Source: Bacteroidota bacterium
GTDB lineage: Bacteria > Bacteroidota > Bacteroidia > Flavobacteriales_C > GCA-002722245
Length of the DNA: 34,114 nucleotides
Direction of reading: 5' to 3'
Assembly: GCA_026390935.1 (NCBI GenBank)
Contig: JAPLEZ010000142.1
Coordinates: 1-34,114, forward strand
Within the stretch, counting starts at the first letter, position 1. Each line of letters starts with the position of its first letter. This document shows positions 5,576 to 17,664 of this stretch, piece by piece. A program made the position numbers and the translations under genes. The notes under the pieces are model-generated. The model saw only the letters and a list, made by a program, of their open reading frames with translations. It did not search any database and had not been told where the DNA came from.

Positions 5576-5836
5576 ATGAAAAAGGTTTTACCAACTCTTC
5601 TTTTTTATTTAATTGCATTAGCCTTAATTTTTACTATTTATCTCATAGAAGATACAGAAGCGATTCACTTTATATACAATTGGGAAGGCACCCTTTTGAT
5701 TTTGCCTCTTATCAGTTTCATTCTTCTTATTGTGAACATTTACCGACATTATACAAATTCAAATAATGTGATTGTTATTATTGTCCATTCAGCTGCTATT
5801 CTTTTAGTGGTCTTATTTTTTTGTTTTTTAAAATAG
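5576..5836 (+). CDS. Small three-helix membrane protein, unknown function
   Basis: This 86-residue protein is almost entirely hydrophobic, with three predicted transmembrane segments at about 5-24, 36-54 and 63-84 and short charged loops (EDTEA; YRHYTNSNN). It begins MKKVLPTLLFYLIALAL, 5 bases after the lpdA stop. I do not recognise a family. It is followed after 29 bases by a secreted protein, and then by the truncated start of a second copy of itself (MKKALPTLIFYGVAF at 6414). The duplication supports it being a real gene. A function in the envelope is all that can be inferred. Confidence 0.7.
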   Translation: MKKVLPTLLFYLIALALIFTIYLIEDTEAIHFIYNWEGTLLILPLISFILLIVNIYRHYTNSNNVIVIIVHSAAILLVVLFFCFLK

Positions 5837-5865: not shown

Positions 5866-6417
5866 ATGAAGCAAATTTTATTACTAGCGATTTTTATCTT
5901 TTTGGGTGAATCATTGCCAGGCCAAAGGGATAGGATAAGTACTTTGAAAATCGAGAAAGAACGGGTTGAACTGATAAAAAAATTTTTAGACGAGTTTAAT
6001 ACCGCTGCTTTGAATAAAGATGAAGAGCAGTTGAAGCAAAAGATCTGTAAAATCGAGTTTTCAAAAAATCACGATATTCAAAAGGAGTTAATTGCTGCTG
6101 TTTTTAAAAACGACGAAACACTTAAGAAAGATATCTGTTATTCAAATCGAGCGATGACGATAGTAAAAGACTCTTTACTAGACCAATTCAGGTATATTGA
6201 TCAACGCACTTATGATCGCCTTAAGGATGAGCTTAAAGGCAATAGCAATGTTTTAAAAGGGGTGTCAAAAAAGCACGTTGTAATGTTTGGCGATTATTGT
6301 CAACCAAATGGATTTGGCGTTGGACCCAAATATTGTGGAACGGATATTTTTTTGCTCATTGACGGAGATGAAGTGAAGTTGATAATGATGTTAGGTATAA
6401 ATAAAGTTCTGAAATGA
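5866..6417 (+). CDS. Secreted protein of unknown function
   Basis: This is a 183-residue protein with a signal peptide (MKQILLLAIFIFLGESLPGQ, cleavage probably after G19 or Q20). The mature part is mostly charged helix (about 21-110, rich in K and E). A C-terminal region (about 135-183) includes KHVVMFGDYCQPNGFG and a hydrophobic strand-like end, DIFLLIDGDEVKLIMMLG. Three cysteines lie in the helical part or close to the C-terminal segment. I do not recognise the family, and there is no T9SS sorting domain, so it is probably periplasmic. Its TGA stop overlaps the ATG of the next, truncated membrane-protein ORF (ATGA), suggesting the original cassette was coupled. Confidence 0.72.
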   Translation: MKQILLLAIFIFLGESLPGQRDRISTLKIEKERVELIKKFLDEFNTAALNKDEEQLKQKICKIEFSKNHDIQKELIAAVFKNDETLKKDICYSNRAMTIVKDSLLDQFRYIDQRTYDRLKDELKGNSNVLKGVSKKHVVMFGDYCQPNGFGVGPKYCGTDIFLLIDGDEVKLIMMLGINKVLK

Positions 6418-6506
6418 AAAAGGCATTACCTACTCTTATTTTCTATGGAGTAGCTTTTATTGTGATTTGGTATTTAACCTTTTTTTCCTCGCTCCGCGAA
6501 GTTTAG
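6414..6506 (+). pseudogene. Truncated second copy of the small membrane protein
   Basis: The ATG at 6414 overlaps the previous stop (ATGA). The 30 codons read MKKALPTLIFYGVAFIVIWY, then LTFFSSLREV and TAG at 6504-6506. The first 12 residues match the protein at 5576 at nine or ten positions, and the DNA starts are also alike, so this is a paralogue. Only about one transmembrane segment remains. The reading frame leaves membrane-protein-like sequence exactly where the hairpin element beginning at 6490 starts, so the simplest reading is a gene cut by that element. It could alternatively be a functional 30-residue peptide. Confidence 0.55.
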
Positions 6507-6632
6507 CGATAGCGTAACTTCGCGGCATCTTTTCTTGAAGCTTTCAGCTTCTTTTAATTCTAAATTTTCTTAAATAACGGAAGCTGAAAGCTTCAAGAAA
6601 AAATTCCGTTAAGTTGAAAACTTAACGGAGCG
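6490..6632. repeat. 143-bp element of three nested hairpins with inverted ends
   Basis: The outer ends are inverted (CGCTCCG at 6490-6496, CGGAGCG at 6626-6632). Inside are three separate hairpins. The first has perfect 10-bp arms, CCGCGAAGTT (6494-6503) and AACTTCGCGG (6516-6525). The second has perfect 21-bp arms at 6531-6551 and 6580-6600, each itself near-palindromic around GAAGCTTTCAGCTTC. The third has perfect 10-bp arms, CCGTTAAGTT (6606-6615) and AACTTAACGG (6619-6628), with a GAA loop. No coding capacity is visible. It resembles a non-autonomous MITE- or REP-like element; no target duplication was found. Confidence 0.75.
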
Positions 6633-6712
6633 TGCGCAAGGAGCGTGTGAACTGTTTCCATAAAAATCCTTTCCTCCTTAAATCATGTGAATCAAGGTTC
6701 CGACAATTTCCT

Positions 6713-6782: not shown

Positions 6783-7784
6783 ATGAAAGCCATTCTCCTC
6801 ATTCAACTTGGTACCCCCGACGCTCCTGAAAAAGCCGATGTAAAAAGATATTTGAAAGAATTTCTCAACGACGGTCGTGTGATTGATTATCCTCCTTTCA
6901 AAAGGTCGTTGCTGGTGAATGGAATTATCATTCCTGCACGATTGAATAACTCAACAGCGATTTATAAAAAAGTGTGGACCGACAAAGGTTCTCCGCTTTT
7001 ATTTCATACTACAGAATTGGCGAAAAAATTACAGAAAGAAATGGGCGAAGGCTACCTCGTAAAATTTGCGATGCGTTACCAAAACCCTTCTCTGGCAGGT
7101 GTTTTAGCTGAACTGGAAAAAATGCCTTTGGAAGAATTGGTAGTTGTTCCTTTGTATCCGCAATATGCGTCATCGTCTACAGGCAGCACTACACAAAGGG
7201 TTTTGGAGTTAGTGAGTAAATGGGAAACCATTCCAACCGTTCGTTTTGTGAATCGCTTTTTTGACAATGATGGCTATATTTCTTGCGTTGCCGAACAGGG
7301 TTTAAAACACAACTGGAAAGAGTACGATAAAGTGGTTTTTAGTTTCCACGGTTTGCCCGAAAGGCACATCACCAAAGGCTGTAAAGTAGCGAACTGCAAA
7401 AAGGAAGATTGTATTTCAAAATGTGATGACGACAGAAAATACTGTTATCGTTCTTCGTGTTACGAAACGGCGCGAATGGTATGCGCAAAAATGAATATTC
7501 CGGAAGATAAATACATGGTAGTGTTCCAGTCGAGATTAGGAAAAGATCCATGGATACAGCCTTTCGCTGATGTTGAACTGGTGAACTTAGCCAAGGCTGG
7601 CGCCAAAAAATTATTGTTTTTTTCTCCAGCATTTGTTGCCGATTGTTTGGAAACCATTGTTGAAATTGGAGGAGAATACAATGAAATTTTTCACGAGAAT
7701 GGAGGCGAAAAAGTACAGCTAGTGGAAAGTCTGAACAGCAATGACAGCTGGGTGAAGGCTTTGAAGTCGATAGTGCTGGAATAG
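6783..7784 (+). CDS. hemH: Ferrochelatase
   Basis: This inserts Fe2+ into protoporphyrin IX (or coproporphyrin III) as the metal-insertion step of haem synthesis. The 333 residues begin with the family signature AILLIQLGTPDAPEKADVKRYL. The catalytic His is H189 in FSFHGLPERH, and the second metal-site Glu is E290 in VADCLETIVEIG. A cysteine-rich segment sits between them (C200, C205, C210, C214, C221, C226), with the YCYRSSCYETAR pattern. Such a segment is common in Bacteroidota ferrochelatases, and similarly placed cysteines bind a [2Fe-2S] cluster in some bacteria; whether they do so here is an inference. The start ATG at 6783 gives the normal N-terminus. No other hem genes are nearby. Confidence 0.96.
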   Translation: MKAILLIQLGTPDAPEKADVKRYLKEFLNDGRVIDYPPFKRSLLVNGIIIPARLNNSTAIYKKVWTDKGSPLLFHTTELAKKLQKEMGEGYLVKFAMRYQNPSLAGVLAELEKMPLEELVVVPLYPQYASSSTGSTTQRVLELVSKWETIPTVRFVNRFFDNDGYISCVAEQGLKHNWKEYDKVVFSFHGLPERHITKGCKVANCKKEDCISKCDDDRKYCYRSSCYETARMVCAKMNIPEDKYMVVFQSRLGKDPWIQPFADVELVNLAKAGAKKLLFFSPAFVADCLETIVEIGGEYNEIFHENGGEKVQLVESLNSNDSWVKALKSIVLE

Positions 7785-13488: not shown

Positions 13489-13537
13489 ATTATTCTCTTT
13501 CACGAAATCCTCCTTCCTTTCGCACAATCAACGCACT

Positions 13538-13668
13538 CCTCCTTTTTTAAAGGAGGAAGTTAGTTAGCTGGCATTTCCTGAGCATATTTATGAAAATGGA
13601 TGAGTGTGGGCTTCTCCCTTTGAAAAAGGGAGGTGCGAAAGGATTCTGTGCGCTGGCAGAGGGATTTT
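13538..13668. repeat. Dispersed hairpin repeat, copy B
   Basis: Second copy of the 133-260 repeat, in the same orientation and again ending on the last base of a minus-strand gene's stop codon. It has the same triloop hairpin (CTCCCTTT 13614-13621, AAAGGGAG 13625-13632). A further pair of arms, CCTTTCGCAC (13516-13525) and GTGCGAAAGG (13633-13642), encloses most of it, and CCTCCTTT/AAAGGAGG forms another small hairpin at its left. The block lies between convergent genes, so a role as a two-way terminator is possible; it has no coding capacity. Confidence 0.8.
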
Positions 13669-14405
13669 CACTTCCCACAATTACACTCCTGCGATTTATA
13701 CTGATTGTACAATTTTAATTTGTGCTCGATTTGAGGGTAATTTCTATCCGACATGGAAGCTATCATTTGATTGCTTTCCAAATCATAGGTGGCGATTTTA
13801 ATTTTACTGTACAGGGTTTTTTCAGATGGAACTATTGCGAAGTATTTACCGTCTTGATAGTACCATTCGTCAATGTGGAAATCCAAATCAAATGAATATA
13901 AAATGCGTTTTTTCTCCAGATCATAAACTGTTAATCCTGCTTGATCGGAATCATAAGATGAAAACAAATAGCGTTGATCGGCAGAAATGTAAAACGCTCC
14001 GCCTAGCTTTTCGGTGAGTTTTCCGGAAGCATCTAATATGAAGATCAATCCATTGTTATCACCTAGTTTTGAAAACATAAAGAAGTCGGCACGAGGTTGC
14101 ACTTCAGGGATAAAAATGCCCGAACATCCGCCCATCGGTTCAATGTTTTTGAAGTACAATTGCTTGGTGATTTTTCCTTTGTTGCTGATGTGCACCCACG
14201 CTTTGCAATAGGTGCTGCTATCGCTTTTTGCATCAATGGATTTTATCTGACGGAACTCAATTTTGTAGGTGAGGAAGGTAGCGCTGTCGACTTTAATTTG
14301 ATATTTATTTGCAGGGTAATCCGCTGGGTCAAAGACTTCCTACTTGTCTTGAGCAATCGCAGTTCGACTGATGAAAACAGTCAGTATTCCGAAGAAAAAT
14401 TTCAT
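13668..14405 (-). pseudogene. Exported-protein gene interrupted by one in-frame TAG
   Basis: From the ATG at 14405-14403 the frame reads a signal peptide, MKFFFGILTVFISRTAIAQ, then D-K and TAG at 14342-14340. It continues in the same frame without a break (EVFDPADYPANKYQIKVD and so on) to TGA at 13670-13668, which would give 245 residues. The downstream part looks genuinely coding, with repeated strand-like units (GLIFILDASGKLTEKLGG, LTVYDLEKKRILYSFDLD) suggesting a beta-propeller. I do not recognise the family. A GTG at 14195 could start the last 175 residues, but that product would lack export. The ATG lies 12 bases after the NMO-family stop, so it is the second gene of that operon. A recent nonsense mutation or sequencing error is the likeliest cause. 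Confidence 0.75.
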
Positions 14406-17566: not shown

Positions 17567-17664
17567 GGCGATAGATCCTTCCTTTGTCAGGAGGACATTA
17601 GCGGGCATTATCTGAAGAATATGGTTTGCATTTTGTCCTCCTGACGAAGGAAGGATCTATCGCC
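17567..17664. repeat. 98-bp hairpin: 30-bp inverted arms, one mismatch
   Basis: The arms at 17567-17596 and 17635-17664 are complementary over 30 bases with a single mismatch (T in the left, C in the matching right position), around a 38-base loop. The loop starts with a 20-base core (17598-17617) that matches repeat copies A and B (17 of 20 bases against copy A, 159-178). The GGAGGA context immediately before the core is also shared. This makes it a diverged or shorter relative of that repeat family, with longer terminal arms. It sits between comM and the orphan antitoxin-like gene. Confidence 0.78.

Follow-up and report, generated by a model that had tools for sequence, protein, structure and literature searches.

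The element at positions 6490-6632 (forward strand) of the window, i.e., of the whole analyzed DNA stretch of 34,114 nucleotides from a Bacteroidota bacterium, is very probably a REPIN-type miniature mobile element that would be mobilized by a Bacteroidota REP-associated tyrosine transposase (RAYT) of subclass 2.6, which corresponds to Bertels group 5. It consists of four hairpins arranged in two mirrored pairs, and each end forms its own folding unit. Most likely, the element is a small parasite of the RAYT enzyme.

Anatomy and covariation of the element

The element comprises a left half, a spacer, and a right half, and its outline is REPIN- or MITE-like. As originally predicted, inverted ends (CGCT-CCG at 6490-6496 and CGG-AGCG at 6626-6632) enclose a non-coding and strongly structured stretch: the 143 bases between these limits fold with a z of -9.2, and an equally good fold was obtained in 0 of 200 shuffles. 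To the left lie a gene that we take to encode a dihydrolipoamide dehydrogenase-like protein, a gene for an 86-aa membrane protein, a gene for a 183-aa protein, and a remnant of a second membrane-protein gene. To the right lies a presumably ferrochelatase-like gene (6783-7784, forward strand), which served as the synteny anchor.

Each end is built from an outer hairpin, a linker of about 11 nt, and a small inner hairpin, and the other end mirrors this order. On the forward strand, the left outer hairpin (6494-6525) has a 10-bp stem and the loop TAGCGATAGCGT, which contains a GC-GATA-GC mini-hairpin; the left inner hairpin, GAAGCT-TTC-AGCTTC, occupies 6537-6551. The right half starts with the inner hairpin GAAGCT-GAA-AGCTTC (6580-6594) and ends with the outer hairpin (6606-6628), whose 10-bp stem is closed by a GAA loop. 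The variable spacer between the halves (6552-6579) corresponds to the position of a transposase gene in the unit on contig C106. Across copies, the loop of the left outer hairpin contains either GCGAAGC or GCGATAGC, and the mini-hairpin is GC-GAA-GC in many copies and GC-GATA-GC in the window copy. The heptamer d(GCGAAGC) is an unusually stable DNA mini-hairpin.

The anatomy was analyzed in an alignment of 24 long copies, 15 from the same genome, five from G002, three from G001, and one from G003. In the layout with four local hairpins, 97.8% of cells are paired, 13 of 36 pairs show two-sided change, and none of 500 shuffles was as good. In the two central 6-bp inner hairpins, which have 100% and 97.2% of their cells paired, two-sided change affects 5 of 12 pairs; the left one is paired in 100% of cells in both alignments used, with two-sided change in two and three pairs. 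By contrast, the central 21-bp pairing has 88.7% of cells paired and two-sided change in 0 of 24 pairs, and cross-pairing between the two termini does not exceed that of shuffles, with two-sided change in 1 of 12 pairs. Because the local hairpins covary, whereas the central stem and the pairing of the termini do not, each end folds as its own unit. Of the three perfect hairpins (10, 21, and 10 bp) initially proposed, the outer two exist and the central one is replaced by two covarying 6-bp hairpins. The window copy could form the 21-bp pairing and can also fold as one long structure; however, this stem and the terminal inverted repeats were rejected as functional structures for want of a compensatory excess in the covariation.

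These data bear on a rival reading in which the element is the MITE of a conventional DDE transposase; CGCTCCG/CGGAGCG would then be its terminal inverted repeats, and the 21-bp centre would form a long stem. The ends are indeed inverted repeats, and the single long fold would suit such a MITE; still, the covariation lies within each end and is missing from both the pairing of the ends and the central stem, and the halves flank an HUH-Tyr gene, making this origin highly improbable.

The RAYT gene on contig C135 is flanked by a second subfamily, which is distinguished by a longer linker and whose pairs measure 168-221 bp. One covariance model of the half-element, R1, was left aside, as its outer stem had only 4 bp, probably due to misaligned Mucilaginibacter rows.

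Copies in the genus and the truncated neighbor gene

The expectation of a dispersed MITE- or REP-like repeat was borne out by 89 blastn matches and by 90 half-elements found in the same genome (G000) with the covariance model R2. The blastn matches resolve into 43 places, 16 of which hold long copies with both ends, one of them interrupted by a contig end. A 163-base query had matches in all four congeners and in none of 35 other relatives, that is, in 5 of 40 genomes counting its own. Model R2 describes one half-element and was trained on 27 halves from the genus, so that its counts within the genus (34 halves in G001, 48 in G002, 15 in G003, and two in G004, besides the 90) are partly circular; the other 35 genomes contain one half in total, in a single genome. 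Among the 76 halves listed of the 90, 51 belong to inward-facing pairs within 260 bp, which make up 25 distinct pairs, and one outward-facing close pair was observed. Gene-less paired elements span 112-221 bp. The tetranucleotide GT[AG]G does not occur on either strand at 6480-6642, and the window copy thus lacks the motif that marks the foot of the hairpin in canonical REPs of the GTAG superfamily.

Copy presence differs between the species. G000 and G002 have the copy on contig C120, whereas G001, G003, and G004 do not; no target duplication of the kind expected from a DDE transposase is obvious at this site, but its flanks are too diverged for a firm reading. From nine extracted copies, the flanks of five further ones were searched in the relatives. 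For the copies on C89, C60, C93, and C6, all 12 fetched relative loci, each matched by one flank, are without the element motif, and the flanks of the C70 copy had no match. The compared sites yielded no clean empty site, target sequence, or target duplication. The differences are presence/absence polymorphism between species rather than demonstrated transposition events.

An alternative explanation is that the element is a selected RNA structure, a terminator or an mRNA-stabilizing 3' structure kept for regulation, and that its spread is incidental. All 15 long copies tested are intergenic, and 14 of them with both neighbors known lie between convergent (6) or tandem (8) genes and never between divergent ones (0), as would be expected of such a structure; similar roles have been published for REPs. 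On the other hand, copies differ in presence between sister species, half-copies and tandem arrays occur, and the same halves bound a RAYT gene. Nor does any Rfam family reach its gathering score: all 31 matches with E up to 1 are sub-threshold, and most are to microRNA models, drawn by the long hairpin. We consider this explanation unlikely and retain the REPIN-type mobile element.

Next to the element, a remnant of about 24 codons of the second small membrane-protein gene (6414-6485, forward strand) is accompanied by the paralogous 86-aa gene (5576-5836, forward strand). Over its residues 1-22, the remnant shares 77% identity with an intact protein of G002; the 86-aa protein is 37% identical to the latter. 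In G002, an orthologous element, 95% identical, sits at the corresponding position, about 20 bp downstream of the stop codon of this intact 88-aa membrane gene. In the window genome, the codons for the first 22 residues are kept, the adjoining stretch of about 200 bp, as far as the element, has been lost, and the right flank is common with G002. Since G002 has the same element after an intact gene, the insertion is older than the truncation, and the comparison indicates that the remnant was truncated by a later deletion. It had been proposed that the element cuts a duplicated membrane gene. The truncated paralog does end at the left edge of the element; insertion into the gene as the cause was rejected based on the G002 synteny. 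Uniqueness of the element together with the same DNA and an intact, unrelated gene in a related strain had been named as evidence against a mobile repeat; in G002 the gene beside the element is intact, but the element is not unique.

Several other repeats were noted. In G004, a single palindrome remains close to the same downstream gene. In G001, at least three tandem copies with a period of about 215 bp follow the dehydrogenase gene, and a further copy lies at the start of the contig leading to the ferrochelatase-like gene (L093 and L091; end of contig C106 and start of contig C19 of that genome). A different MITE-like inverted repeat, with the ends CATTGCGA...GAAGCAA and TTGCTT...TCGCAATGAC, is found in loci L214 (contig C32 of G002) and L216 (contig C1 of G001), at sites orthologous to those of element copies or close to such sites. 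Another dispersed repeat, of the AAAGGAGGAAGTTAGTTAGCTGGCATTTCCTGA type, occurs in the window at 129-266 and 13534-13674, and also beside element copies in L008 and L010. Finally, a 31-bp inverted repeat with 97% complementarity at 17567-17664 is probably another dispersed hairpin; a similar sequence, TCCTGACGAAGGAAGGATCGATCGCC, adjoins a REP on contig C81.

RAYT genes and their mirrored flanks

The genome encodes three Y1 transposases. Two of them, on contigs C106 and C135, score 103.6 and 104.7 bits with the NCBIfam model of REP-associated tyrosine transposases (NF047646, cut-off 80), and 21.8 and 22 bits with the IS200 model (cut-off 55); the third scores 69.1 with NF047646. A gene of this kind, outside the window, had been suggested as a possible source of mobility, and both halves of the element flank the one on C106. 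There, 46 nt separate the end of the left half from the ATG codon and the right half begins 1 nt after the stop codon, so that the gene is enclosed in a unit of about 0.7 kb. Because this RAYT is bounded by the element's own ends, the window copy looks like a gene-less version of the unit. Hairpin structures flank both the C106 and C135 genes; the absence of GT[AG]G refers to the window copy.

In an alignment of five proteins from the genus, the C106 RAYT has the motifs NHVH, WQ, and YIHNNP, with 83 aa between HUH and Tyr. The published signature of TnpAREP subclass 2.6 is NH[LIV]H, WQ, YIH[QN]NP, about 82 aa from HUH to Tyr, and a conserved SS (PMC6006769), and the C106 protein fits it fully in a motif-based rather than tree-based assignment. 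Variants are YIHDNP in the C135 protein and in the protein from contig C44 of G001, and WR and YIHYNP in the G004 protein. By these motifs, the RAYTs of the genome match subclass 2.6, or Bertels group 5, of Bacteroidetes. A PDB search by sequence returned nothing at E 0.01, and the predicted structure of a 59%-identical homolog (L131, pLDDT 92.6) has the RAYT-REP complex 4er8 as its best PDB match (E 7e-8).

Some observations speak against the REPIN reading. G002 has many element copies, yet the only RAYT gene detected in it is partial and belongs to the other, C135, type. The RAYTs of G001 and G003 share one locus, as do those on C135 of G000 and C10 of G002; the gene itself thus seems mostly inherited in place. 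In three relatives the C106 locus is without a RAYT but is occupied by other genes. L096 (contig C59 of G004) and L100 (contig C19 of G003) hold a third RAYT, which has a separate repeat family (CGCTTAGCG... AAGCCTTCGGCTT).

Mirrored flanks extend beyond the genus. A contig scan provided 80 related RAYT loci, assigned to Bacteroidota by record titles with one labelled only 'uncultured bacterium'; eight were dropped for short flanks. Upstream and downstream flanks are mutual inverted repeats above the 99th percentile of shuffles at 61 of the remaining 72 loci. Only 14 of the 72 exceed the 99th percentile of a cross-locus control, which is inflated because related loci share repeat families. A looser double-hairpin test was positive at 60 of 72 loci, compared with 96 of 360 shuffles. 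RAYTs of Mucilaginibacter are flanked by recognizably the same half, with the loop GTTTAGCG-AGCGTAA and the inner hairpin AAGCTTTCAGCTT; visual inspection of 16 loci showed that others keep a comparable mirrored arrangement with different sequences, and that a few have no clear one. Similar mirrored ends therefore appear to flank most related RAYT genes examined. The triplet GCT at the outer foot was rejected as a subclass-wide cut motif, being too weak (13 of 70 vs. a background of 8.8%).

These observations suggest the following scenario. Each end would represent a REP in which a small inner hairpin accompanies an outer hairpin; the loop of the latter is a structured GCGA(T)AGC or, at the right end of the window copy, a plain GAA. 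Arranged as mirror images on either side of a short spacer, the ends enclose the RAYT in the C106 unit; without the gene, they would form the window copy. In single-stranded DNA, for example during lagging-strand synthesis, the ends may fold locally; the HUH-Tyr RAYT would bind the folded ends, cut near the hairpin foot, and join the strand elsewhere, and the element would thereby be copied or moved into intergenic DNA. Halves resulting from decay or central deletion may persist as single REPs. A bolder suggestion, which we regard as rather doubtful, is that the domestication of subclass 2.6 RAYTs is incomplete: the gene would still reside in a compact single-strand transposon of about 0.7 kb, bounded on the left and on the right by a double-hairpin end and able to move as a whole, and the REPINs would be its deletion derivatives. 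If so, the group would still bridge IS200-type insertion sequences and REPtrons, which are immobile.

Comparison with known systems

The general kind of element is known, and the paired-hairpin ends appear undescribed in the open-licence PMC literature searched: no description of double-hairpin ends was found there for this RAYT group. In their passages on subclass 2.6, Quentin et al. (2018; PMC6006769) call the flanking repeats only 'atypical secondary structures' and report them without GT[AG]G, the hallmark of canonical REPs. The present system is alike in being a Bacteroidetes RAYT with the same motifs and with non-GTRG flanking structures that recur in the genome. The structures, not resolved in those passages, are here mirrored double hairpins, often paired into gene-less elements of 112-221 bp. 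The 'atypical' repeats thus gain a sequence definition, two mirrored hairpins per end with no GTAG guide in the window copy. With this definition, experiments can address the way in which a RAYT that lacks the usual guide recognizes and cleaves its repeat, and such repeats can be annotated as a family rather than as terminators or unknown hairpins.

With the REPINs of P. fluorescens (Bertels and Rainey, 2011; PMC3116915) the element shares (i) an inverted REP doublet with a short, variable spacer and left and right ends, (ii) many, mostly extragenic copies, (iii) a RAYT in the genome flanked by the same REP, and (iv) tandem arrays and decayed singlets. It differs in having two hairpins per end and no GTAG-type head. 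In P. fluorescens, compensatory changes reportedly span the doublet hairpin; here, the end-to-end pairing does not covary, and a whole-doublet hairpin with compensatory changes between the ends is not observed. The E. coli REP/BIME system with TnpAREP (PMC8266576) resembles ours in the RAYT fold, 4er8 being the best match to the homolog model, and in its hairpin repeats; the stem and loop are different here, and there is no GTAG guide. CT, the published cleavage dinucleotide of E. coli, sits at the outer foot of our element (CGCT), where the RAYT may cut. Members of IS200/IS605 such as IS608 and ISDra2 are set apart by the NCBIfam scores, which identify a RAYT rather than an IS200 transposase, and by their defined target tetranucleotide, of which no counterpart was found here; they share with the C106 unit the superfamily of single-strand HUH-Tyr transposases and a gene placed compactly between hairpin ends.
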